A stretch of DNA of 64,000 nucleotides from Devosia sp. A16 (GTDB lineage: Bacteria > Pseudomonadota > Alphaproteobacteria > Rhizobiales > Devosiaceae). Shown piece by piece: positions 243-13,818 of this stretch. The position numbers and the translations under genes are program-made. The DNA lies in NCBI RefSeq assembly GCF_001402915.1, contig NZ_CP012945.1, forward strand, positions 1,713,501-1,777,500, read 5' to 3'. Numbering within the stretch: the first letter of the stretch is position 1; each line of letters opens with the position of its first letter. Below the pieces are notes generated by a model, which ran no database searches, was not told where the DNA came from, and was given only the letters and a program-made list of their open reading frames with translations.

Positions 243-1370
243 CTACCCAAGGCTCAACGCCTTCACCACCGACTCGTCCACCTCGATCCCAAGCCCTGGA
301 CGCGTCGGCGCATACGCCTGCCCGTCTCGCTGGCGGATCGGTTCGTCGACCAGGTCCGTCTGCACCACCACGGGGATCGGCTTGAACTCGAACAGCCGGG
401 CATTGGGCGAGCAGAGCGACAGATGCAGGCTCGCCGCGCTGAGGATCGCCGTGCTCCAGGCATGAGCGTTGATGGCGATCCCGGCCGCGCCGCAGAGCGC
501 GTCAATCTTGGAGAAGCCGGTCACTCCTTCGGCCCGCGACGGATCGACGCCCAGCACGTCGACCGTGCCGGTCTCGATCAGCCGCTGGTAGCCGGTCACC
601 GTGAACTCACGCTCGCCGGTGCCGATCGGCAGCTCCGGCAGCGCCGCCTTCAGCGCACGGTAGTCGTCGATCCGCGTCGGATAGAATGGCTCCTCGATCC
701 AGCCGATCTCGTACTCGGCCATTCGCCGGGCGGTGGCGATGCCGGTCTCGCGGTCCCATTTCACCCCATTTCCGACATCGACGATGATCTCGAAATCCGG
801 CCTCAGCGCTTCCCGCAACTCGCGCACGAAGGCGACGTCGTTGTCCGGATCCTGCCCGATATCGGAAAGCCCGCGCTTGCCGAAGCCGAGCTTGGCGCCG
901 CGATAGCCTTCCGCCTGGTAGCCGACGATTTCGTCGACGCACAGCGCCCGGGTCGCCTTGTTGACGTGGCTCGAGGAATAGGCCGGCAAACTCTCCCGTA
1001 CCTTGCCGCCCAAGAGCTCGTAGAGCGGTTTGCCCTGGAGCTTGCCTTCGATATCCCACAGCGCCATGTCGAGTGCCGAATAGGCGAAGCACGCAATGCC
1101 ACCCTCGCCATACCACCAGGCGTGCGCCCGCATCTTCTCCCATGCCGTCGTGATGCTGATCTCACCGGCATCCCTGAGGAGCGGTGCGAAGCCCGTATCG
1201 ATCAGCGTCTTGGTTGCCCAGCAGGCCTCTGGCCACATGGCGATGCCCTCGCCCCAGCCGACCACGCCGTCCACGGTCTCGACCCTGACCAGCACCGTCT
1301 GGCGGAGGTTCCCGTGGTCGTTGGTGTCGGCATAGCGGATCACGTAGCTGGTGATCTGGCCCACGTGCAT
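243..1370 (-). CDS. Mandelate racemase/muconate lactonizing enzyme family protein (enolase superfamily)
   Basis: A 375-residue enolase-superfamily enzyme, expected to abstract the proton alpha to a carboxylate (sugar-acid dehydratase, racemase or cycloisomerase). Metal ligands are visible at D198 (IIVDVGNG), E226 (WIEEPF) and E253 (GTGERE). The general-base dyad is D276 and H303 (NAHAWS). K160 lies in GAKLGFGK, where mandelate racemase has K-x-K; here the second Lys position is Gly. ATG 1370 was chosen because GGGAGG precedes it by 7 bases; extending upstream would translate a repeat element. It is transcribed divergently from the FadR-type regulator and probably controlled by it. The substrate is unknown. 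Confidence 0.85.
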   Translation of the reverse strand: MHVGQITSYVIRYADTNDHGNLRQTVLVRVETVDGVVGWGEGIAMWPEACWATKTLIDTGFAPLLRDAGEISITTAWEKMRAHAWWYGEGGIACFAYSALDMALWDIEGKLQGKPLYELLGGKVRESLPAYSSSHVNKATRALCVDEIVGYQAEGYRGAKLGFGKRGLSDIGQDPDNDVAFVRELREALRPDFEIIVDVGNGVKWDRETGIATARRMAEYEIGWIEEPFYPTRIDDYRALKAALPELPIGTGEREFTVTGYQRLIETGTVDVLGVDPSRAEGVTGFSKIDALCGAAGIAINAHAWSTAILSAASLHLSLCSPNARLFEFKPIPVVVQTDLVDEPIRQRDGQAYAPTRPGLGIEVDESVVKALSLG

Positions 1371-1384
1371 GCGGCATCCTCCCT

Positions 1385-1434
1385 GAGCGCTTTCAGGAAA
1401 AGTTGCAGACTTTTCCGGTTCGAAAGCGCGACAA
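1385..1434. repeat. Repeat family A, copy 1 (nested hairpin)
   Basis: An outer stem GCGCTTTC...GAAAGCGC (1387-1394/1422-1429) encloses an inner perfect stem GGAAAAGT-TGCAG-ACTTTTCC (1396-1416), and the unit ends in GACAAA. Near-identical units occur at 3094-3144 and 9333-9376. This copy sits directly 5' of the enolase-superfamily gene. Confidence 0.8.
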
Positions 1435-1509
1435 ATCAAACCTGTGGCCCGTTGCTCGAGCTCGGCATTGTCTGGCGTTGACTAGCACCGGGGGCGCTGC
1501 TAGGTCAAG

Positions 1510-1526
1510 AAGTGGTCAGACCACTT
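1510..1526. promoter_or_regulatory. FadR/GntR-type operator palindrome
   Basis: AAGTGGTC-A-GACCACTT is a perfect 8-bp inverted repeat around one base. It matches the TGGTCxGACCA core typical of FadR-subfamily GntR regulators such as PdhR and LldR. It lies 56 bp before the regulator start at 1582 and 140 bp before the divergent enolase-superfamily gene, so the neighbouring regulator is the likely binder (inference). Confidence 0.7.
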
Positions 1527-1581
1527 GGCCATCTACTACAACACGGCCAAAGATGCCGCGGACGTAAGGGGGAGCGAAACA

Positions 1582-2307
1582 GTGCCGATCAGCGACCTCA
1601 GCGGCGAAGCGCCGTTGCGCCGTTCCGGCCTGACCGAGATGCTGGTGGCGCGCCTGCTCGGCCTCGTCAGCACCGGCAATCTGAGGCCGGGCGACCAGTT
1701 GCCGCCCGAGCGCAAGCTCGCCGAGACCTTCGAGGTCTCGCGTCCGACGCTGCGCGAAGCGCTGCGCGCTCTCGCCGTGCTGGGGGTCATCGAGGTGCGG
1801 CATGGCGGCGGCGTGTTCGTCTCGCAGCTCGAAGCCTCAGACCTCCTCGCGCCGCTGACCTTCTTCCTCACCCTGCGCGCCGCCGAAGTCGAAAAGCTAT
1901 ATGAGGCGCGCCGGCTGATCGAAGGCGAGATCGCCGCTCTTGCGGCCACCCATGGCGAGGCCGCTGGCTTCGACGAACTGGACACACTCATCGCGGCGCA
2001 GGAAGAGGCCAAGCTGGAGCCGGCGCGCTATAGCGATGTCGATACCGCCTTCCATCGCCGGCTGGGCGAGCTTTCCGGCAATGAATTCCTGTCGCGCGCC
2101 GCCCAGAGCCTCAATGTGCTCGGCCAGGAATTCAGAAAGACCGCTTCGGAAACGCCCAACGTCATCTCCACATCGATTGCCGACCATCGCATCATTGTCG
2201 AAGCGATCCGGCGGCGCGATGCTGCCGCGGCACGGCAGGCGATGATCACCCACATGGACCACGTGCTGCAATCCACCGAGGCTGCGATGAAGGCAAAGAA
2301 CGAATGA
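1582..2307 (+). CDS. FadR-family GntR transcriptional regulator
   Basis: A 241-residue GntR regulator. The N-terminal winged helix-turn-helix contains LRPGDQLPPERKLAE and VSRPTLREALRAL. The C-terminal FadR-type ligand-binding domain is all-helical and includes EARRLIEGEIAALAA, D-x-x-FH and a late HRIIVEAIRRRD segment, the usual metal/ligand His pattern. The frame opens earlier with a TTG at 1525, but that codon lies inside the operator palindrome. GTG 1582 has AGGGGGAG 8 bases upstream and is preferred. The gene overlaps the next one by 4 bp and probably autoregulates the operon. Confidence 0.85.
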   Translation: MPISDLSGEAPLRRSGLTEMLVARLLGLVSTGNLRPGDQLPPERKLAETFEVSRPTLREALRALAVLGVIEVRHGGGVFVSQLEASDLLAPLTFFLTLRAAEVEKLYEARRLIEGEIAALAATHGEAAGFDELDTLIAAQEEAKLEPARYSDVDTAFHRRLGELSGNEFLSRAAQSLNVLGQEFRKTASETPNVISTSIADHRIIVEAIRRRDAAAARQAMITHMDHVLQSTEAAMKAKNE

Positions 2308-3086
2308 CCGAAAGACGCTGGGGGCTCGACAAGGTCACCGAGGCCAACATCCTCGCGGGTGGCTTTTCCACTCCGTGGGATGCGCCGTTCATCCCGCCCT
2401 TCCCCTTCACTTTCCGCAATGCCGAAGTGCTGACGGTGTTCTGGCGCACCGACCCCAAGGCGATGCAGTTCCTCGCCCCGCCGCCGGTCGAAGCCACCGG
2501 CGACGTGGTCTGCGTGCACATCTACAAGATGAACGACACCAGTTGGATCGGGCCCTATCACGAAGCCAACGTGATGTTCGGCGCCAAGCTGCCGAACGGC
2601 CGCTCCGGCGCCTATTCGCCTTACCTGTTCCTCGCCTCCGACGGCGGCGTGGCCCATGGCCGCGAGGTGCATGGCCAGCCCAAGAAGCTCGCCAACCCGT
2701 TCCTCGAGTTCCGTGGCGACCTGATGGTCGGCGGCGTCGAGCGCAACGGCATCGACGTCATCACCGTTACCACGCCCTACAAGCAGCAGCCGGTCGATCC
2801 TGCGCTGATGCGGGCGCATTTCGACTACGGCACCAACCTCAATCTGAAGGCGGTCAACCACATCGACGGCACCCCGGCGATCCGCCAGATCACCTCGCGC
2901 AAGCTCACAGACGTCAAGGTACATGAGTGCTGGCGCGGGCCGGCGACGGTGGAGCTCAGGCCCAATGCCCAGGCGCCGGTGTTCCGCCTGCCGGTGGTCG
3001 AGCCGCTCGAGGCCTTCTACTGGCGCGCCGACTTCACCCTCGTCACCGGCGAGATCATCCACGACTATCTGGCCAAGAGCGCATAA
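2304..3086 (+). CDS. Acetoacetate decarboxylase-family protein
   Basis: 260 residues of the acetoacetate decarboxylase (ADC) fold. The GREVHGQPKKLANP segment matches the ADC active site, where the first Lys of the pair (here K127-K128) forms the Schiff base with a beta-keto acid. Family members decarboxylate beta-keto acids or catalyse retro-aldol and dehydration chemistry. The start ATG overlaps the regulator stop (ATGA), so translation is coupled. Neighbours are sugar dehydrogenases and an isomerase rather than acetone-pathway genes, so the true substrate is probably a keto sugar acid or its product (inference). Confidence 0.85.
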   Translation: MTERRWGLDKVTEANILAGGFSTPWDAPFIPPFPFTFRNAEVLTVFWRTDPKAMQFLAPPPVEATGDVVCVHIYKMNDTSWIGPYHEANVMFGAKLPNGRSGAYSPYLFLASDGGVAHGREVHGQPKKLANPFLEFRGDLMVGGVERNGIDVITVTTPYKQQPVDPALMRAHFDYGTNLNLKAVNHIDGTPAIRQITSRKLTDVKVHECWRGPATVELRPNAQAPVFRLPVVEPLEAFYWRADFTLVTGEIIHDYLAKSA

Positions 3087-3093
3087 GCGCCCG

Positions 3094-3144
3094 GAGTGCT
3101 TTCAGGAAAAGTCGCAGACTTTTCCGGTTCGACAGCGCGACAAA
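3094..3144. repeat. Repeat family A, copy 2
   Basis: Same nested hairpin as at 1385-1434, differing at a few positions (GTGCTTTC and GACAGCGC weaken the outer stem, while the inner GGAAAAGT/ACTTTTCC stem is intact). It fills the only sizeable gap inside the 1582-6609 operon, between the decarboxylase-like and dehydrogenase genes. Confidence 0.8.
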
Positions 3145-3168
3145 AGAGATTTTCATCGGGAGGACAGT

Positions 3169-4218
3169 TTGAGCGATAAGGTCAATATCGGCGTCATCGG
3201 CGCCGGCTGGTGGGCGACCCTCAGCCACATCCCCGCTTTGCGCGCCAACCCCAATGTCGAAATCGTCGCGGTGAACCGCCCCGATGCCGAGGGCATGGAG
3301 AAGGTGGTCGCGAGCTTTCCCGGCGTAAGACCCTATTTCGACGCGGCGGACATGCTGGAGAAAGAGACCCTGCACGGCGTGGTCGTCGCCTCGCCGCACA
3401 TTCTCCACGCCGAGCACGGGCAACTGGCGCTGTCGCGCGGCCTGCCGACACTGATCGAAAAGCCGATGGCGACCAGCGCCGCCGATGCCCGCGCCCTCCT
3501 CGCCACCGCCAACGCGAATAACACGCAGATCATCCTCCCCTATGGCTGGAATTTTAGGCCCATCGTCGAGACCGCCCATCAGCTGGTCAAGGACGGCTGG
3601 GTCGGCGAAGTGCGGCACATCGTGGCGCAGATGGCCTCGGCGCTGGCCGATCTGTTCGGGGGCGAGCCGATGGTCGAAACCAAAGACCACCTGTTCCGTC
3701 CACCCGTTTCCACCTGGGCCGATCCCAAGAAATCCGGCGGCTACGGCTGGGGCCAGCTGACCCACGGGCTCGGCGCGCTGTTCCGCATCGTCGATCTCGA
3801 CCCGGCCAAGGTGTTTGCGAGAACCGGCCTCTCCCCCGCAGGCGTCGATTTCTACGACGCCGCCGTGGTCGAGTTCGCCAATGGCGCGACCATGGCGCTG
3901 TCGGGTTCCGCCACGGTGCCCAAGTCGCGCGGCTACCAGATCGATATCCGCATCTTCGGCACCGAGGGGATGATGCTGTTCGACATCGAGCGGGCCCGCG
4001 TCGAAGTGATCCGCCACGACGGCAAAACCCACATCGCCGATCTCGGCCCCGATGCCGGCGCCTACGAGCAGGTGGCGCCGATTACCCTCCTGGTCGATCT
4101 GGCGCGCGGCCGCAACGTGCCGAACCCCGCCGATGGCGTGGTCGGGATGCGCTCGAGTGTGCTGCTCGACGCCATGTACCGCTCGGCGCGATCGGGGCGC
4201 ATGGAGGACGTACTGTGA
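3169..4218 (+). CDS. Gfo/Idh/MocA family oxidoreductase
   Basis: 349 residues. The N-terminal Rossmann domain begins VNIGVIGAGWWA (GxGxxG for NAD(P)), and LIEKPMA carries the family E-K-P motif with K98 as the usual catalytic/nicotinamide Lys. A C-terminal alpha/beta substrate domain follows. Such enzymes oxidise sugar hydroxyls, commonly at C3. The start is TTG 3169, with GGGAGG 5 bases upstream; no ATG or GTG is better placed, and the open frame further upstream runs through repeat A. It overlaps the isomerase gene by 4 bp (GTGA), a frequent partnership in keto-sugar pathways. Confidence 0.85.
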   Translation: MSDKVNIGVIGAGWWATLSHIPALRANPNVEIVAVNRPDAEGMEKVVASFPGVRPYFDAADMLEKETLHGVVVASPHILHAEHGQLALSRGLPTLIEKPMATSAADARALLATANANNTQIILPYGWNFRPIVETAHQLVKDGWVGEVRHIVAQMASALADLFGGEPMVETKDHLFRPPVSTWADPKKSGGYGWGQLTHGLGALFRIVDLDPAKVFARTGLSPAGVDFYDAAVVEFANGATMALSGSATVPKSRGYQIDIRIFGTEGMMLFDIERARVEVIRHDGKTHIADLGPDAGAYEQVAPITLLVDLARGRNVPNPADGVVGMRSSVLLDAMYRSARSGRMEDVL

Positions 4219-5033
4219 AGCTCAGCGTCACCAGCTGGTCCTTCCCCGAACTGACGCTCGACGAAGTCGGCGGCCTCGCCAGGGTGCTCGGCCTCGACGG
4301 ACTGGATGTCGGCTATTTCTACCGCTCCGCTCTCGACCGTGCGCGGTTGCTGGCCACCCCCGAGACCTATGCCGACGAGCTGCGGAGGCGCCTGCCGCTG
4401 CCGGTCGCCAACCTCTACCACCTGTTCGGCAATGGCGTCGCCGACCGCAACCTCGCCGACCCGGACAGCCGCGCTGCCAATACTGCCGACTTCACCGCGG
4501 TGCTGAAATTCTGCGCCGCCATCGGCGCGCCCACCGTGTTCATCCTCCCCGGTGTCATCAACGGTGCCCAGAGCCGTGCCCAGGCGCTCGCTGAAACCGT
4601 CGAGTCGCTGCAGCCGCTGCTCGATCTGGCGGCCGGCACCGGCGTGGCCGTCTGCGTCGAGCCGCATATCCACTCCTATCTCGAAAGCCCCGCCCTCGCC
4701 GCCGAACTCTGCGAGCGCGCACCAGGCGTGAAGCTGGCGCTCGACTACGCGCACTTCGCCGTCGCCGGTTACCGGCAGGACGAAATCGACCCGCTCGCCC
4801 GCTGGGCCGGCCATGTGCACCTGCGGCAAGCTCGCCCCGGCGCCCTGCAAACCAAGCTCGACCAGGGAACGCTCAACTTCCCGGCGCTGTTCGCCACGCT
4901 GCGCGATGCCGGCTACGACGGATGGCTAGCTGCCGAAGTCGTCCACCAGGGCTATTTCGATACGCTGCACGACGACGTGCTGACCGAGACCGTGAAACTG
5001 CGCGACCTGTTCCGCGCCTGGAGTGCCCTGTGA
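4215..5033 (+). CDS. Sugar phosphate isomerase/epimerase-family TIM-barrel protein
   Basis: 272 residues of the xylose-isomerase-like/AP-endonuclease-2 TIM barrel. Metal-binding segments are visible at VCVEPHIHS, LALDYAHFAVAG, GHVHLRQARPG and WLAAEVVHQG, giving the usual Glu-Asp-His-Glu set. The start GTG overlaps the preceding stop, and its own stop overlaps the next GTG. Members isomerise or epimerise sugars or act on 3-keto-sugars. The pairing with a Gfo/Idh/MocA dehydrogenase suggests action on its keto product (inference). Confidence 0.8.
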   Translation: MKLSVTSWSFPELTLDEVGGLARVLGLDGLDVGYFYRSALDRARLLATPETYADELRRRLPLPVANLYHLFGNGVADRNLADPDSRAANTADFTAVLKFCAAIGAPTVFILPGVINGAQSRAQALAETVESLQPLLDLAAGTGVAVCVEPHIHSYLESPALAAELCERAPGVKLALDYAHFAVAGYRQDEIDPLARWAGHVHLRQARPGALQTKLDQGTLNFPALFATLRDAGYDGWLAAEVVHQGYFDTLHDDVLTETVKLRDLFRAWSAL

Positions 5034-5842
5034 GTACTGGAGCCATCATCGTCACCGGCGGAGGCGGCGGCATCGGTCGCGCCATCGCCAAGCGCCTCCA
5101 TGCCGACGGCCACAGAGTGGTGATTGCCGACCGCGACCGAGCGGTAGCCGAAAGCGCCGCAAGCGCCATCGGCTGCGAGTTCGAGCTGATCGACATCGGC
5201 GACGAAGCCTCGGTGGTAGCCGGCGTCAAGGCCGTCGCCGCCCGTCATGGCGGGCTGTTCGGCGTCGTCAACAATGCCGGCATCCACATGCAGGCACTGG
5301 TGGTCGAAACCGCCGTCGAGGACTGGGACCGGATCTTTTCGGTCAACACCCGCGGCACCTTCCTGATGTCGCGCGAGGCGGCGCGGATCATGGCTGCGCA
5401 GCAGAGCGGCCAGATCGTCAACATCATCACCAAGCTCGGCTTCGGCAACCCGTTCTCTTCGGCTTATCTCTCGTCCAAGAACGCCATCTGGGGCCTGACC
5501 CAGTGCCTCGCCATCGAGATGGCCTCGAGCGGCGTGCGGGTCAACGCCATCGCCCCCGGCCATGTCGGCCCCGGCACCGGCATGGAGAAGGCGTTCCGCG
5601 CCAAGGCCGAAAAGCTCGGCAAGAGCTGGGAGGATTTCGAGGCCGACGTGGTCGCCACCATCCCGCTGCACCGCTGGTGCACCCCCGAGGATGTGGCGGG
5701 CGGCGTCAGCTGGCTGATGGGGCCCGACACCAGCTTCGTCACCGGCGAACTGATCAACATCACCGGCGGCTTCCAGGCCTACGCCTCGACGCCCAGTGCG
5801 GACGCCGTCCGCGCCGCAGCAGAACGAGGCCCGACGAAATGA
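5030..5842 (+). CDS. SDR family oxidoreductase (atypical catalytic Ser position)
   Basis: 270-residue short-chain dehydrogenase/reductase. Cofactor motif TGGGGGIG (residues 9-16), NNAG (81-84), N106 in SVNTRG and Y146-x3-K150 (AYLSSK) are present. The usual catalytic Ser, 13 residues before the Tyr, is Ile133, with Thr134 next to it, so Thr may substitute. The C-terminal FVTGELINITGG segment is typical. It starts at GTG 5030, overlapping the previous stop by 4 bp. Probably NAD(P)-dependent oxidation of a sugar or sugar acid in this operon; substrate unknown. Confidence 0.85.
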   Translation: MSTGAIIVTGGGGGIGRAIAKRLHADGHRVVIADRDRAVAESAASAIGCEFELIDIGDEASVVAGVKAVAARHGGLFGVVNNAGIHMQALVVETAVEDWDRIFSVNTRGTFLMSREAARIMAAQQSGQIVNIITKLGFGNPFSSAYLSSKNAIWGLTQCLAIEMASSGVRVNAIAPGHVGPGTGMEKAFRAKAEKLGKSWEDFEADVVATIPLHRWCTPEDVAGGVSWLMGPDTSFVTGELINITGGFQAYASTPSADAVRAAAERGPTK

Positions 5843-6609
5843 ATAAGTCCCTGCAAGGCAAAGTCGCGCTGGTCACCGGCGCACGGGCCGGCCTCGGCGC
5901 CGCCACGGTGCTGGCGCTCGCCGAGCTCGGCGCGACCGTCATCGCTTCGGGCCGGAAAGCCGGCGACTGCACCGAGGTGGTCGCGGCGGTTGTCGCCAAA
6001 GGCGGCAAGGCCAGCGAGCTGGTGCTCGACGTCGGCGACCTCGCCGCCATTCCGGCACGCGCCGCAGCGGCGCTGGCGCTCCATGGTCGCATCGATATCC
6101 TCGTCAACAATGCCGCGACCATCGAGCCGATGGCGAGGCTCGGCGCGCTCGACCCACTGGCTTTCGACCGCTCGCTGACCGTCAATGTCAGCGGTCCCGC
6201 CGCGCTGGTCGCGGCTCTGTGGCCCGCGCTCAAGGGCGGCCGCGTCGTCAACGTGGTGAGCGGCGCCGCCAACCACGCCATGTCAGGCTGGTCGGCCTAT
6301 TGCGCCGGCAAGGCGGCGCTGCTGATGCTGACCCGCTCGATCGAGCTCGAAGGCACCGAGATCGGCCTCCGTGGTTTCGCCTTTGCGCCCGGCCTCGTCG
6401 ACACCGACATGCAGGCGTCTATCCGTGCGGCGAAGATCAACCAGATTTCCGACGTGCCGCGCGAAAACCTGCAGCCGCCGCAGCGCCCGGCCCGGGTCAT
6501 CGCCTGGCTGGCGACTGGAGCCGCCGATGACCTGGCGGGGCAGTATGTCGATATTCGCCAGGAGGGGTTGATGGAGCGGGTGGGGGCCGCATCTTCAGGA
6601 TCGACCTGA
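5839..6609 (+). CDS. SDR family oxidoreductase
   Basis: 256-residue short-chain dehydrogenase. Motifs: TGARAGLG (13-20), NNAA (90-93), N116 in TVNVSG, S141 and Y154-x3-K158 (AYCAGK), i.e. a complete catalytic tetrad. The ATG overlaps the stop of the preceding SDR (ATGA). It is the last gene of the six-gene operon starting at 1582 and is followed by a repeat that can form a hairpin. Two SDRs plus a Gfo/Idh/MocA enzyme imply several oxidation steps. Confidence 0.85.
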   Translation: MNKSLQGKVALVTGARAGLGAATVLALAELGATVIASGRKAGDCTEVVAAVVAKGGKASELVLDVGDLAAIPARAAAALALHGRIDILVNNAATIEPMARLGALDPLAFDRSLTVNVSGPAALVAALWPALKGGRVVNVVSGAANHAMSGWSAYCAGKAALLMLTRSIELEGTEIGLRGFAFAPGLVDTDMQASIRAAKINQISDVPRENLQPPQRPARVIAWLATGAADDLAGQYVDIRQEGLMERVGAASSGST

Positions 6610-6749: not shown

Positions 6750-7748
6750 TCACTCCCCCGGCTTGGGCGCCAACTCCTCGCTGCTGCGCGCCGCCTCGGC
6801 GATGCGCCGCCGGGCTCGGAACAGCCCCCATTGCTGGTCGACCAGCACGCCGACGAGGATCACCCCGCCCATCACCGCGAAGTTGAGCGAGGAGGGAATA
6901 CCGAGGAGGTTCACGAGGTTCTGCAGCTCCTGCAGGAGGATGGTGCCGAGGATCACCCCGACGATCGAGCCCTCGCCGCCCCGCAGCGAGAAGCCACCCA
7001 GCACCGCCGCTGCGATGGCATAAAGCTCGTAGAAATTGCCCTGCGACGACGGCTGCACCGAGCGGGTGTACATGGCGAAAAAGATCGCCGCCAGCGCCGT
7101 GAGCCCGGCGCAGATCACATAGGCTGAAGTCACCACCACATCAGTCCGGATGCCCGAAAAGCGCGCCGCTTCCTCGTTCTTGCCAATGGCGAACAAGTAG
7201 CGGCCGAACACCGAGCGGTGCAGTGTGAACCAGGCGATCACCGCCACCACCGCCAGCACATAGACCGACACCGGAATACCGCCGATGCGGGCGACGAAGA
7301 AATCGAGTCCCGGATACTCGCTGCCGAACGGGAAGCCGGCGGTGGCGTCGGCGGTGTAGCCCCGCGCCACGCCGCGATAGATCAGGAGCCCGCAAAGCGT
7401 CACCACGAAGGGCTGCATCTTCAGTTTGGTGATCAACAGCCCATGCGCCAATCCCAGCGCCAGCCCCAGCACCATCACGATGGCGAAGGCGATCGGCCAG
7501 GGCACGCCTTTGGCGCCGACCAGGTCGACGAACAGCACGCCGAGCAGTGCGATCATCGAGCCGGCGCTGAGTTCGATACCGCCGGTGATGATGACGAAAC
7601 CCTGTCCGATGGCGAAGAGCCCGAACAATCCGATCAGGTTGGCGGTATTGGCGAGGTTCTGCGGGCCGAGAAAGGCAGGGTTGCGCAGATACACCACGAA
7701 CCCGACGACGACGATGAGGGCCAGGAGGCCCAGGTCCTTCTTGTTCAT
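6750..7748 (-). CDS. Sugar ABC transporter permease (RbsC/XylH type)
   Basis: 332-residue inner-membrane permease with about 8-10 hydrophobic helices. Family landmarks are GGIELSAGS (RbsC has GGIDLSVGS), the TLCGLLIYRGVARG loop and AAAVLGGFSLRGGEGS near the cytoplasmic loop that contacts the ATPase. It begins 10 bp after the ATPase gene stop and is the last gene of the importer operon at 10393-6750. The substrate is probably a monosaccharide and may feed the adjacent 0.2-6.6 kb catabolic genes (inference from proximity). Confidence 0.87.
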   Translation of the reverse strand: MNKKDLGLLALIVVVGFVVYLRNPAFLGPQNLANTANLIGLFGLFAIGQGFVIITGGIELSAGSMIALLGVLFVDLVGAKGVPWPIAFAIVMVLGLALGLAHGLLITKLKMQPFVVTLCGLLIYRGVARGYTADATAGFPFGSEYPGLDFFVARIGGIPVSVYVLAVVAVIAWFTLHRSVFGRYLFAIGKNEEAARFSGIRTDVVVTSAYVICAGLTALAAIFFAMYTRSVQPSSQGNFYELYAIAAAVLGGFSLRGGEGSIVGVILGTILLQELQNLVNLLGIPSSLNFAVMGGVILVGVLVDQQWGLFRARRRIAEAARSSEELAPKPGE

Positions 7749-7758
7749 CCGCTTCCCC

Positions 7759-9300
<1,542 letters not shown>

Positions 9301-9332
9301 TCCACCTCCCCGCGTCCTCCAAGGGAACTCTA

Positions 9333-9376
9333 GAGCGCTTCCTCGAAAAGTTGCAGAGCTTTCCGGGAGCGCAACA
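9333..9376. repeat. Repeat family A, copy 3
   Basis: GAGCGCTTCCTCGAAAAGTT...GAGCTTTCCGGGAGCGCAACA is a diverged copy of the units at 1385 and 3094 and keeps the GCGC outer stem. It sits between the binding-protein and ATPase genes of a leftward operon, next to the strong stem-loop at 9387-9424. Confidence 0.65.
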
Positions 9377-9386
9377 CCCAGCGCGA

Positions 9387-9424
9387 CATGGCGCGGAAGA
9401 CAGCCCCCCGTCTTCCGCGCCATG
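9387..9424 (-). terminator. Strong stem-loop after sugar-binding-protein gene
   Basis: CATGGCGCGGAAGAC (9387-9401) and GTCTTCCGCGCCATG (9410-9424) form a perfect 15-bp stem with an 8-base loop. It begins 10 bp after the binding-protein stop (reading leftward) and lacks a T-run. Partial attenuation or mRNA 3'-end protection is more likely than full termination, as is common after binding-protein genes. Confidence 0.7.
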
Positions 9425-9433
9425 CGCCCGATG

Positions 9434-10393
9434 TCAGCTGCCGCTGATCTTGGCCTTGAGGTCGGCCGAGAAGGCGTCGACATTGTCCTTGTTGATCACT
9501 GCCGTCGGCACGATGATCAACTTGTTTTCAGGAATCCCCGACTTGTCGCCTTCGAGATAGGCGGCCATCAGCTTCATGCCCTGGTAGCCCCATTCGAACG
9601 GCTGCTGCACGATGGTGGCGGCGAACGAGCCTTCCTTCACCGCGCCCAGCGTCACCGGGTCCTCGTCGAACGCCACCACGGTGATGGCTCCGAGCTTGCC
9701 GGCCGCCTGCAGCGCCTCGTAGATCTTGGGCGGGTTGTAGGAATAGAACCCGACCATGCAGTTGATCTCGGGGTTGGCCACCAGCACGTCGTCGACATTG
9801 GTGCGCGCCTTGGTGAAATCCACGTCGTCGCCGCGCACGTCGACCAGCTCGATGCCCTTGCCTTCGATCGCCTGGCGGAAGCCGGCGATACGCTCGACTG
9901 CGTTGTCGGCGCCGAGGAAGCCGACAAAGCCCATGCATTTGCCGGGCTTGCCGGCCAGCGCCTTGACCATTTCCTCGCCCGCCTGCACCCCGGCGGCGGT
10001 GTTCGACGAACCGAGATAGGCCAACCGGTTCGATGCCGGAGCATCGGAGTCGGTGGTGAACAGCGGCACTTGCGCGGCGATACGATTGAAGGCGTCGATC
10101 GAGTTCTTCGGATCGGCCGACGAGATCATGATCGCGTCGGTGCCGGCAGCGACGAGGTCATCCATCAGCGCGTTCTGCAGCGCAGCAGTGCCCTGTGCCG
10201 GGTAGCGGAACTGCAACTCGTAATTGGGCAGTTCGGCCTGTGCCTTCTTCACCCCGGCTTCCGCCAGCTTCCAGAAATCGGAAGAGGCGTTGACGACGAA
10301 GGCGAGCTGCTTTTTCTCCTGAGCGACGGCGCTGCCGACGAGCAGGACCCCGGCGGCGACCGCCACCGCGGCAATACTGACGAGTCTCTTCAT
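9434..10393 (-). CDS. Sugar ABC transporter substrate-binding protein (periplasmic)
   Basis: 319 residues of the ribose/galactose-type periplasmic binding fold. The signal peptide MKRLVSIAAVAVAAGVLLVG ends at an A-V-A cleavage site before QEKK. The mature protein shows the family pattern: LAFVVNASSDFWKLAEAGVK, DAIMISSADP, GEEMVKAL and VVAFDEDP. Two ATGs are adjacent (10396 and 10393); the second is preferred because GGGAGG is better spaced from it. First gene of a binding protein-ATPase-permease operon. Closest in style to xylose/ribose-type binders; ligand unknown. Confidence 0.87.
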   Translation of the reverse strand: MKRLVSIAAVAVAAGVLLVGSAVAQEKKQLAFVVNASSDFWKLAEAGVKKAQAELPNYELQFRYPAQGTAALQNALMDDLVAAGTDAIMISSADPKNSIDAFNRIAAQVPLFTTDSDAPASNRLAYLGSSNTAAGVQAGEEMVKALAGKPGKCMGFVGFLGADNAVERIAGFRQAIEGKGIELVDVRGDDVDFTKARTNVDDVLVANPEINCMVGFYSYNPPKIYEALQAAGKLGAITVVAFDEDPVTLGAVKEGSFAATIVQQPFEWGYQGMKLMAAYLEGDKSGIPENKLIIVPTAVINKDNVDAFSADLKAKISGS

Positions 10394-10526
10394 CATTCCT
10401 CCCTGGCCGCCCTCCGGCGGCGCTGTTGGTTTCGTCCCGCACCTCGTCCGGTCTCTGCCGGAACATCTGCTTCCGTCGAAGCTGAGGTGCGCATCTCCAC
10501 CCGGCACCAAGAGAGAACGGTGCCAT

Positions 10527-10566: not shown

Positions 10567-11583
10567 TTACTCCCCGATTTCCTTGTTGCGCAGCCGGTCG
10601 AAGGCGACTGCCAGCACGATGAACGCCCCCACGAACGTCCCCTGCCAGAAGGTGCTGATGCCGAGCAGCGTCAGCGAGTTGCGGATGATTTCGATCAGCG
10701 CCGCCCCGACCACCGCCCCGAGCGCCGTACCGCTGCCGCCGGCGAGGTTGGCGCCGCCGATCACCGCCGCCGCGATCACCGTGAGCTCGAGCCCGGTGCC
10801 GAGCCCGGTGGTCACCGAGCCCAGCCAGCCGGTTTCGAGGAACCCGGTGATGCCGGCGCAGAACGCCACGAACATGTAGACCGAGACCTTCACCGCCTTC
10901 ACCGGCACGCCGGTCAGCACCGCGGCCTTCTCGTTGCCACCGATGGCGTAGAGGTGCCGGCCCCAGCGGGTCCAGCGCAGCGCAAAGCCGGTAATCAGCG
11001 CCAGGATCACCATGACGATCAGCGGATTGGGGACCGGCAACCCGCCCACCGTCACCGAGCCGCCGCCGATGGCGAACAGGATCGGCTGATCCGGCCCGAA
11101 CTCGTAGATCAGCGCGTTGTTGCTCATCACCATGCCGATCGAGCGGGCGATCGACATCATGCCCAGGGTGACGACGAAGGCGGGCATGCCGGCGACCGCG
11201 ATCAGCACGCCGTTGATCAGCCCGACCAGCAGCGAGGCGCCGATCGCTGCCGGCAGCGCCAGTGTGATCGGCAGGCCCGCATGCATGATGAGGGTGGTGA
11301 CCATGGCCGCGATCAGCACGGTGGCGCCGACCGACAGGTCGATGCCGCCGGTGATGATCACCGCGGTCATCCCCAGCCCGACAATGCCCACGAAGGCGAA
11401 GTTGCGGGTGACGTTGAACAGGTTCTGCGGCGTCGCGAAGGTCTTGGTCAGCAGCATCATGGCGATGACGGCGAGCACCACCGCGAGCAGGATCCAGAAG
11501 ATCTGCCGGCTGATCAGCCACGGCAGGAAGCCGCGATGCGTCTGCTGGTCGATGGCGTCCTTGAGCGAGGTATCGGTGGTCAT
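10567..11583 (-). CDS. Sugar ABC transporter permease (RbsC/FrcC type)
   Basis: 338-residue permease with multiple membrane helices and family landmarks TGGIDLSVGATVL, VVTLGMMSIARSIG and AAAVIGGANLAGGSGT. The ATG has GAGGAG upstream and begins 12 bp after the ATPase stop, so the two are co-transcribed. The partner ATPase is single-domain, as in the fructose-type FrcABC importers, and the probable binding protein is encoded divergently at 12829-13818. Confidence 0.87.
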   Translation of the reverse strand: MTTDTSLKDAIDQQTHRGFLPWLISRQIFWILLAVVLAVIAMMLLTKTFATPQNLFNVTRNFAFVGIVGLGMTAVIITGGIDLSVGATVLIAAMVTTLIMHAGLPITLALPAAIGASLLVGLINGVLIAVAGMPAFVVTLGMMSIARSIGMVMSNNALIYEFGPDQPILFAIGGGSVTVGGLPVPNPLIVMVILALITGFALRWTRWGRHLYAIGGNEKAAVLTGVPVKAVKVSVYMFVAFCAGITGFLETGWLGSVTTGLGTGLELTVIAAAVIGGANLAGGSGTALGAVVGAALIEIIRNSLTLLGISTFWQGTFVGAFIVLAVAFDRLRNKEIGE

Positions 11584-11595
11584 GTCGGCAACTCC

Positions 11596-12393
<798 letters not shown>

Positions 12394-12828
12394 CGTTGCC
12401 CCTCCCAAGGCTGGAAGGCTCCGCCCTCCGCTAGATGTCGCGGGCAAATCTATGCGGGATGCCGCGCCCAGCGTCAATCGACTTCGAGCATCCGCCCCGA
12501 CCACGCAAAAAACGTCAGCAGGGTTGCTGTTTATCCAGTCTTTCCAACGTCTTTATCCACGTATCTGATAACTTAGTGCGCTTGAATGTGCACGTGCATC
12601 AGCCCGATTGACTATTGTCACGAGCCGTCTCAGTATCCGCCTCAACATGCGAAGCACCGCGGCCAGCAACGGCCGGCAAGAAGGCGCGCGCAAGCATTGA
12701 GGAGCTCACCGAGACGGCAAACGTATCAGCGGGCGGCCAGGGACCACTCGCCGTTGAGGTACGTTAGTCGGGCTCGACCGAGGGCCTGCGCCAAGCAGGT
12801 CGAGACTGAACCCGAGGGAGGAAAGACT
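12394..12828. promoter_or_regulatory. Divergent promoter region between ATPase and binding-protein genes
   Basis: 435 bp without a convincing gene, and the AT-richest part (about 12505-12610) of this neighbourhood. It holds a direct repeat TTTATCCA at 12530-12537 and 12552-12559 (22 bp apart, about two helical turns) and a 10-bp palindrome TGCACGTGCA at 12589-12598. Both are plausible regulator sites, since the region must drive the leftward ATPase-permease pair and the rightward binding protein. No regulator gene is adjacent. Confidence 0.4.
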
Positions 12829-13818
12829 ATGCGTAAGACTACCTTTGTGCTTGCCGGCGCGGCCATTGCCGTTGCGCTCGCAGGCAGCGCTATGGCGCAG
12901 GACAAAAAGATCCTCGCCGTCGTCGTCAAAGGCCTCGACAACCCGTTCTTTACGGTGATGGGCCAGGGCTGCGCCGACTGGAATACCGCGCACCCCGACA
13001 GCGAATATACCTGCCTTTACACCGGCCCGGCACTGAGCTCGGACGAAGCCGGCGAAGTGCAGATTGTGCAGGACCTGATCAGCAAGGGCGTCGCGGGCAT
13101 CGCCATTTCCCCGTCCAATGCCCCGGCCATGGCCAATATGCTGAAGGCCGCGGCGCCGACCATGCCGATCATGACGGTCGATGCCGATCTGTTGCCGGCT
13201 GACAAGGCGCTGCGCAAGACCTATTTCGGCACCAACAACTACGACATGGGTGTCGGCATGGCCAAGGAGCTGATGAAGCTCAAGCCCGGTGGCGGCACCG
13301 TCTGCCTGCAGCTGGGCAACGTCGCGGCAGCCAACATCAACGAGCGCGCCGCCGGTTTCCGCGACACCATTGCCGGGGCCAAGGGCACCGAGCGGCTGAA
13401 CAACTCCAATGGCTGGACCGAAGCCGAAGGCTGCCCGACCTACACCAATGACGATATCCCGACGGCCAACCAGCAGATGGCGGACGTCTTCACCGCGCAG
13501 CCGAACCTCACCGCCTTCGTGCTCGTCGGCGGCTGGGCCCAGTTCGGGCCGCAGGCCTATGCCCAGAACACCGATCAGGTGATGGACAAGCTCAAGAGCG
13601 GCGACCTGGTGATCATCGCCGGCGACACCTTGCCGCCGCAGACCCAGGCCTTCCGCGAGGGGCGCAGCCAGTTCCAGATCGGCCAGCGGCCCTACCAGAT
13701 GGGCAACGAGGCGCCCGATGTGCTGATCAAGCTGATCAATGGCGAGACGGTGCCGGACCCGATGTATACCGGGCTTGACCTGTGCACCAAGGAAGACCCC
13801 GGCGTCTGCGCCAAGTAA
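12829..13818 (+). CDS. Sugar ABC transporter substrate-binding protein (periplasmic)
   Basis: 329 residues with an N-terminal signal peptide (cleavage likely after GSAMA, before QDKK) and the periplasmic sugar-binding fold: VVVKGLDNPFFTVMGQGC, GIAISPSNAP, MTVDADL, GFRDTIAGA and an ADVFTAQPNL segment. Four Cys pairs are possible (TCLYTG, VCLQLG, GCPTYT, LDLCTKEDPGVC), unusual for a sugar binder. ATG 12829 follows GGGAGGAAAGACT. Transcribed divergently from its presumed ATPase and permease. A clear terminator follows. Confidence 0.87.
   Translation: MRKTTFVLAGAAIAVALAGSAMAQDKKILAVVVKGLDNPFFTVMGQGCADWNTAHPDSEYTCLYTGPALSSDEAGEVQIVQDLISKGVAGIAISPSNAPAMANMLKAAAPTMPIMTVDADLLPADKALRKTYFGTNNYDMGVGMAKELMKLKPGGGTVCLQLGNVAAANINERAAGFRDTIAGAKGTERLNNSNGWTEAEGCPTYTNDDIPTANQQMADVFTAQPNLTAFVLVGGWAQFGPQAYAQNTDQVMDKLKSGDLVIIAGDTLPPQTQAFREGRSQFQIGQRPYQMGNEAPDVLIKLINGETVPDPMYTGLDLCTKEDPGVCAK

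Follow-up and report, generated by a model that had tools for sequence, protein, structure and literature searches.

Which compound is broken down by a gene cluster that places an enolase-superfamily (MR/MLE) enzyme, a Schiff-base enzyme of the acetoacetate decarboxylase (ADC) superfamily, a Gfo/Idh/MocA oxidoreductase (Gfo), a TIM-barrel enzyme (TIM) and two short-chain dehydrogenases (SDR1 and SDR2) beside one FadR-type regulator? The cluster lies in a 64-kb window (the whole stretch of DNA analysed, 64,000 nucleotides; G000:C1:1713501-1777500) of the 5.03-Mb genome of Devosia sp. A16, and the initial annotation had described it as an unassigned sugar-acid pathway. A lone FadR-type site in the divergent promoter and strong co-conservation of the genes make the cluster more than a chance arrangement, and its genes very probably belong to one pathway. 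Our best explanation, which we hold tentatively, is that the cluster would encode most of a non-phosphorylative pathway in which an aldose and the corresponding sugar acid are degraded. A pathway of this kind is already known; the variant here is one to which a subfamily of the ADC superfamily is added.

Gene layout of the cluster

The cluster consists of the following features, with positions given in the window.

243-1370, minus strand: MLE, enolase-superfamily (MR/MLE) acid-sugar dehydratase candidate, 375 aa; Pfam MR_MLE_N and MR_MLE_C
1385-1440, no strand: dispersed palindromic repeat 5' of the MLE gene
1513-1523, no strand: FadR/GntR-type operator-like site TGGTCAGACCA, 17-bp palindrome AAGTGGTCAGACCACTT, in the divergent promoter
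1582-2307, plus strand: FadR-type GntR regulator; Pfam GntR and FCD
2304-3086, plus strand: ADC-superfamily Schiff-base enzyme with a remodelled active site; ADC PF06314, 181.7 bits
3096-3150, no strand: second copy of the palindromic repeat, at the spot of another gene in two relatives (below)
3169-4218, plus strand: Gfo/Idh/MocA oxidoreductase, TTG start; Pfam GFO_IDH_MocA
4215-5033, plus strand: xylose-isomerase-like TIM-barrel enzyme; Pfam AP_endonuc_2
5030-5842, plus strand: SDR1; Pfam adh_short
5839-6609, plus strand: SDR2; Pfam adh_short

All of the genes first described are present and each matches the Pfam family given for it, and the MLE gene is indeed divergent from a GntR-ADC-Gfo/Idh-TIM-SDR-SDR run on the plus strand (1582-6609). 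Coupling of that run by 4-bp overlaps holds at four of its five junctions (2304, 4215, 5030 and 5839) and fails between ADC and Gfo, where an 82-bp gap from the ADC stop (3086) to the TTG start of Gfo (3169) contains a repeat copy. For MLE, the ATG at 1370 is the more likely start; the TTG at 1439 was rejected because the extension falls inside the repeat at 1385-1440, which is predicted to form a hairpin (−20.6 kcal/mol) and has many copies genome-wide at 84-96% identity.

The genes are conserved as a unit

A scan for the ADC family, with one genome per species, gave 93 confirmed relatives, of which the best 80 were used, and partners were counted with tblastn probes consisting of relatives of the window genes and of partner genes from Rhodobacterales. 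At least 7 kb of flank was available on each side of 52 of these 80 loci. Within this set, the GntR regulator was found at 48 loci, SDR2 and Gfo at 43 each, MLE (its two branches pooled) at 42, a D-2-hydroxyacid dehydrogenase (HADH) at 42, TIM at 40, a mutarotase at 36 and a RhaS-like substrate-binding protein at 34. Rarer partners were an acylpyruvate hydrolase (FAH; 15 loci), L-rhamnonate dehydratase (8) and SDR1 (5); relatives of SDR1 with at least 45% identity lie near 11 of all 80 loci.

Because all 80 loci had been found using ADC as bait, co-occurrence was also tested without it. Among 169 genomes of another family (that of G347), ADC was found in 11, HADH in 10 and TIM in 9, and the three sets are nested: every HADH genome (10/10) has ADC, and every TIM genome (9/9) has both ADC and HADH (hypergeometric p 3e-15 to 2e-13). 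In one of these genomes, G535, the TIM gene lies on a different contig from ADC and HADH. A class sample of 387 genomes contained four genomes with MLE, three with ADC and two with HADH; ADC was present in three of the four MLE genomes and in both HADH genomes, and the fourth MLE genome (G483) has an MLE of 43% identity in a different neighbourhood. Since only 14 of 136 genomes of the window's own family have ADC, the cluster is patchy. Its carriers are isolates and metagenome-assembled genomes (MAGs) of Devosia, Rhodobacterales, other Hyphomicrobiales and some Betaproteobacteria.

A lack of co-conservation in related genomes had been named as a result that would disprove a common pathway; the genes were found to be co-conserved and the disproof fails. 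A single pathway is supported both by co-conservation and by a common operator. That two or more unrelated small pathways merely stand side by side is very unlikely. SDR1 occurs at only 11 of 80 loci, HADH has no orthologue in the window's own genome, and loci L098 and L101 have no partner gene at the thresholds used, as such a mixture would predict; against it stand the nested genome-wide co-occurrence, the repeated rearrangement of the same genes and the joint absence of Gfo, TIM and mutarotase described below.

A wider module with two parts

Beyond the genes of the window, the wider module includes HADH, a mutarotase and a sugar importer, and in some cases FAH as well. The earlier picture had omitted HADH, the mutarotase, FAH and an upstream operon of the L-rhamnose type that shares the operator. 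Taking genes on the same strand less than 250 bp apart as adjacent, HADH comes immediately after ADC in 50 adjacencies and before it in 4, and in Mesorhizobium (L030, 10783-11733) and Devosia geojensis (L032, 10780-11727) it stands between ADC and Gfo. No HADH orthologue was found in the window's genome, where the best matches are only 30-36% identical; HADH has been lost in this lineage, and a repeat copy occupies its spot. A Chelativorans plasmid carries MLE, GntR, ADC, HADH, FAH, Gfo, TIM, SDR and mutarotase in a single run. In a plasmid of Shinella, the genes close to the cluster include ones annotated as altronate dehydratase, L-rhamnose mutarotase, amidohydrolase and ABC importer; we read these as an L-fucose-like pathway. 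FAH gave 25 matches, one of them cut at a contig end, and all 24 complete copies have H83 and E86, the residues that a passage of PMC6336799 assigns to carbon-carbon hydrolysis.

Gfo, TIM and mutarotase are all absent from nine of the 52 well-flanked loci. Six of the nine (L042, L067, L084, L086, L087 and L095) retain MLE, SDR2 and ADC, five of these six with HADH, and the remaining three (L094, L098 and L101) are also without MLE at the thresholds used. L094, which has no HADH, has a GlcD-like oxidase (247 bits, cut-off 568) about 3.5 kb away from ADC and on the opposite strand. The carriers examined among the six are a TRAP transporter next to ADC in L084, TRAP genes in the vicinity in L042 and, in both L086 and L095, an MFS carrier, for which the best model in L086 is a metabolite/H+ symporter (393 bits, cut-off 443). 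We read these loci as separating an acid-level core of MLE, SDR2, ADC, HADH and FAH from an aldose-level module of ABC importer, mutarotase, Gfo and TIM.

Elsewhere in the Devosia sp. A16 genome, locus L150 (6274-10253; G000:C1 about 1389274-1393253) holds a galactarate/altronate-type dehydratase, a GntR regulator, an LRA6-like FAH and a FucU-like mutarotase (121 of 141 bits), likely an L-fucose pathway.

An ADC-like enzyme with a rebuilt pocket

The AlphaFold model of the ADC-like protein (mean predicted local distance difference test, pLDDT, 85.7) has 3bgt as its best PDB match (TM 0.81, E 9.6e-24), which gives it the ADC fold. We take 3bgt to be the Chromobacterium acetoacetate decarboxylase and 3bh2 that of Clostridium acetobutylicum. 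Beside the catalytic lysines the pLDDT is about 61-62 (residues 111-130) and below 50 (residues 122-124), and pocket geometry was judged from the alignment and from strand parity. In an alignment of 81 rows (the window and the 80 loci), numbered after C. acetobutylicum ADC, Lys115, Lys116 and Glu76 (K127, K128 and E87 in the window) are kept in 80 rows; the exception is a gap in L073. There, in Devosia aurantiaca (also L022/L025), a frameshift splits the ADC gene, and the other cluster genes are still nearby.

The fold and these three residues are thus common to our subfamily and to the acetoacetate decarboxylases 3bh2 and 3bgt, but the subfamily differs at Arg29 and Glu61, which are presumably active-site residues of that enzyme, and at Tyr113 and Met210. 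Arg29 (A40 in the window) is Ala, Val, Cys, Met or Ile in 81/81 rows; Glu61 (H72) is His in 80, and Ser in the split L073 gene; Tyr113 and Met210 are both replaced by Gln, and a new Arg (R38) is invariant. Arg29 is intact in CaADC, in CvADC and in the Mesorhizobium and Burkholderia plasmid relatives, as is Glu61, which is also intact in a paralog at L086 whose segment does not span Arg29. Within the NCBIfam library the protein passes only a subfamily model, PRK02265.

By analogy with the MppR, Sbi00515 and Swit_4259 branches, a chemistry other than decarboxylation is possible. These proteins have the same fold, presumably with Schiff-base lysine chemistry in common, but share only 15-21% identity with the subfamily and have a different gene context. 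A pyruvate-type aldolase (or an epimerase or dehydratase) acting on a 2-keto-3-deoxy acid is one such role, and we consider it somewhat unlikely: a Schiff base at C2 would permit retro-aldol cleavage to pyruvate and an aldehyde, and the SDRs and HADH would process the products. The retained lysines fit this role, as do the replaced Arg29/Glu61 pair and the polar aligned positions (Y113 to Q, M210 to Q), and all three same-fold relatives match the ADC model, among them Sbi00515, which we take to be an aldolase-dehydratase. A passage of PMC7820114 also suggests two ADC-related proteins for cleavage of 4-hydroxy-2-oxopentanoate in phenol degradation. In sequence, however, the enzyme is nearest the true ADCs (32-34% in the structural alignment, against the 15-21% to the aldolase families), FAH lies directly 3' of HADH in 13 adjacencies, which would make an aldolase redundant, and no aldehyde dehydrogenase was noticed in the loci whose gene starts were read by eye, nor at the two plasmid loci that are annotated. 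A lactonase role was left low: Gfo and mutarotase are neighbours of ADC in some loci, yet ADC persists in the acid-level loci.

Catalytic residues of the partner enzymes

In MLE (59 rows, the window and 58 relatives), K160, D198, E226, E253, D276, H303 and E328 are each conserved at 97% or more; among 57 stricter relatives, the metal ligands D198 and E253 are present in 57 and E226 in 56, and the Asp-His dyad (D276 and H303) in all 57. Gfo/Idh keeps K98 in 55 of 56 relatives and P99, W194-G195-Q196 and H199 in all 56, and TIM keeps E149, D177 and H180 in 51/51 and H202 and E241 in 50/51. SDR2 has Y154 and K158 in 63/63 relatives; its score stays below the cut-off of each of the 25 top NCBIfam models listed. 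The best NCBIfam match of TIM is 2-oxo-tetronate isomerase (OtnI, NF043033), at 37.5 bits and so far under its cut-off of 325. The pathway is indeed unassigned in the family library, as first supposed, in that no NCBIfam equivalog cut-off is reached by the MLE, ADC, Gfo or TIM protein, and among the matches listed from the Creative Commons-licensed PMC literature, judged by titles and the starts of abstracts, we found no description of the cluster.

A proposed chemical scheme

The chemistry that we infer, in its reactions, substrate and order alike, is possible, if doubtful. The mutarotase would present the aldose, Gfo/Idh would oxidise C1, and TIM would act next to Gfo/Idh, by lactone opening or isomerisation. 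MLE would then take water from C2-C3 to form a 2-keto-3-deoxy acid, SDR2 would oxidise C4 to give a 2,4-diketo acid, and FAH would cleave this to pyruvate and a small 2-hydroxy acid to be handled by HADH. The ADC-like enzyme would decarboxylate a beta-keto acid via a Schiff base. The substrate would most likely be a uronate or aldarate: after oxidation of a 2-keto-3-deoxy-hexarate at C4, C6 would leave as CO2, and 5-hydroxy-2,4-dioxopentanoate would yield pyruvate and glycolate; glycolate/glyoxylate would fall to HADH or, at L094, to the GlcD-like oxidase (far below its cut-off). The dehydratase-SDR-Schiff-base logic of the initial annotation fits the comparative anatomy of the loci.

The end of this scheme has a precedent, since a passage of PMC6336799 reports pyruvate and glycolate from 5-hydroxy-2,4-dioxopentanoate. 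Route III, as described in passages of PMC6336799 and PMC11199699, consists of a dehydratase, a 4-dehydrogenase and an FAH hydrolase, and those passages name no ADC; because ADC is near-obligate here, an extra step is implied. We chose beta-keto decarboxylation for that step because Route III for neutral acids is complete without ADC, and a decarboxylase is needed only when there is a second carboxylate. It is conceivable, though we would not call it probable, that the route is an as yet undescribed one in which the ADC-like enzyme, its pocket rebuilt and more polar, removes CO2 from a non-phosphorylated diketo sugar acid through a Schiff base and without a cofactor. Route III would then be open to sugars that carry a second carboxylate (uronates, aldarates or branched acids), with pyruvate and glycolate as the end products. 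An ascorbate-type 3-keto-gulonate route and a hydroxypyruvate/tartronate-semialdehyde loop were both set aside, as neither fits MLE and FAH.

Several observations, besides the ADC bait behind the 80 loci, weigh against this scheme. With Arg29 and Glu61 replaced throughout the subfamily, native decarboxylation is not assured. MLE is without the second Lys of the KxK motif, a feature of mandelate racemase; it has K160-L-G162, with Gly in 59/59 rows. The modules are not clean, in that three of the 52 loci (L030, L032 and L055) are without the mutarotase alone, and L089 and L103 have Gfo and ADC without MLE, SDR2, HADH or TIM. FAH is near only 25 of the 80 ADC loci, and the FAH found in the window's genome (424 bits, cut-off 500) lies elsewhere, clustered with an L-fucose-type mutarotase. 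The closest matches of the mutarotase are L-rhamnose mutarotases, and the binding protein of the Rhodobacterales loci resembles RhaS (274.7 of 342 bits); both point to neutral deoxy sugars rather than uronates. Finally, L103 (7011-11085) has an operon otnK-otnC-Gfo-ADC-mutarotase, in which the 3-oxo-tetronate kinase and the 3-oxo-tetronate-4-phosphate decarboxylase exceed their NCBIfam cut-offs, and which the scheme does not predict.

The L103 operon bears on a further alternative, in which an aldonate is oxidised, isomerised and decarboxylated without dehydration. Gfo/Idh or HADH would form a keto-aldonate, TIM, in the manner of 2-oxo-tetronate isomerase, would shift the C2 ketone to C3, and loss of CO2 through ADC would leave a ketose one carbon shorter. 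OtnK and OtnC in L103 act on the same type of beta-keto acid, ADC directly follows Gfo in seven adjacencies, and the distant OtnI match of TIM points the same way. This alternative is nonetheless clearly unlikely: it gives no role to MLE, SDR2 or FAH, all conserved with ADC, six loci have ADC, MLE and SDR2 without Gfo and TIM, and no ketose kinase appears among the conserved partner clusters (at least six loci).

Comparison with known pathways

Returning to the Route III variant, the closest known systems are the Route III pathways of L-fucose, L-rhamnose and pentoses, as presented in parts of PMC6336799 and PMC11199699. Like these, the cluster and its relatives have an enolase-type dehydratase candidate, an SDR, an FAH with H83 and E86 (in some relatives), a mutarotase, an ABC importer and a GntR regulator, and the cluster neighbours L-rhamnose-type genes in Devosia and L-fucose-like genes in Shinella. 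Unlike these, it has the ADC-like enzyme and HADH as near-constant partners, Gfo/Idh and TIM replace an SDR and an amidohydrolase lactonase, and MLE is far under the cut-offs of known dehydratases. The four-carbon acid-sugar pathway (OtnI, OtnK and OtnC) resembles the cluster in its isomerase-fold enzyme, with otnK and otnC adjacent in one relative (L103), but no kinase or aldolase-type decarboxylase is among the conserved partners, and TIM scores far too low for OtnI. What emerges is a sharply bounded, testable orphan pathway and an ADC subfamily with a diagnostic active-site change. Solving the pathway would add an activity to the ADC superfamily and correct the annotation of two plasmid members of the subfamily, now labelled acetoacetate decarboxylase.

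The operator, the upstream operon and the importers

TGGTCAGACCA has a single match in the window, at 1513-1523, with 0.02 expected from shuffles. Genome-wide, the operator pattern TGGTCNGACCA has four sites, compared with 11 for a reversed control pattern, so that the argument is not rarity but position: two of the four sites are 2.2 kb apart, one in the divergent promoter and the other upstream of the substrate-binding protein gene of the next operon (L009 14348). The exact pattern occurs somewhere in 18 of the 80 loci. A third operator-like site (G000:C1:3186240-3186250; L167) lies between genes that look like those for a LacI-type regulator and a sugar ABC permease.

The upstream operon encodes a substrate-binding protein, ATPase, permease, GntR regulator, mutarotase, L-rhamnonate dehydratase, SDR and Gfo. 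Its GntR regulator is 47% identical to that of the cluster, with a near-identical SRPxLREALR helix. The L-rhamnonate dehydratase of this genome scores 448 bits, above the cut-off of 393, and L-rhamnose mutarotase passes its cut-off (108.6 versus 99.6 bits) in the Devosia Root413D1 copy, to which a 105-aa open reading frame of the window's genome is homologous. An L-rhamnose 1-dehydrogenase was not seen in this genome's own upstream operon and is present in L026. The predicted operator would tie the cluster to this L-rhamnose-type operon.

Such a tie would suit a substrate from the pectin rhamnogalacturonan II (RG-II), and a branched 3-C-carboxy sugar such as aceric acid is a last alternative, though a highly improbable one. 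Dehydration by MLE would give a beta-keto acid, ADC would convert it to 4-hydroxy-2-oxopentanoate, and SDR2 and FAH would yield pyruvate and acetate. The scheme would be chemically closed with the native activities of all four enzymes, but it leaves HADH without a role and does not obviously need a mutarotase, and the wide spread among isolates and MAGs of Rhodobacterales has no obvious link to plants.

Because the operator is common to the cluster and the upstream operon, the upstream ABC transporter is a better candidate importer than the one at 6750-10396; in L088 and L089, a relative of the upstream transporter precedes Gfo(-TIM)-ADC-mutarotase. The importer at 6750-10396, which the initial annotation had attached to the pathway, exists, but it is convergent with the operon and its membership is weakly supported at best. 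It adjoins the cluster in L026, L028 and L027 (there to the contig end, in the permease gene), all three of them close relatives within Devosia. It is not beside the cluster in L029 (Devosia sp. 66-14), where the next importer comes straight after SDR2, nor in L030 or L032, and it has no operator copy; as the cognate importer it was set aside.

A second sugar ABC importer (permease, ATPase and divergent substrate-binding protein; 10567-13818) adjoins the first and is kept beside the cluster in L026, L028 and L029. Between the upstream operon and MLE lies an SGNH/GDSL hydrolase gene (L009 14417-15082, ending at window position 82), possibly encoding a sugar deacylase, with relatives also at L026, L029, L034 and L089.

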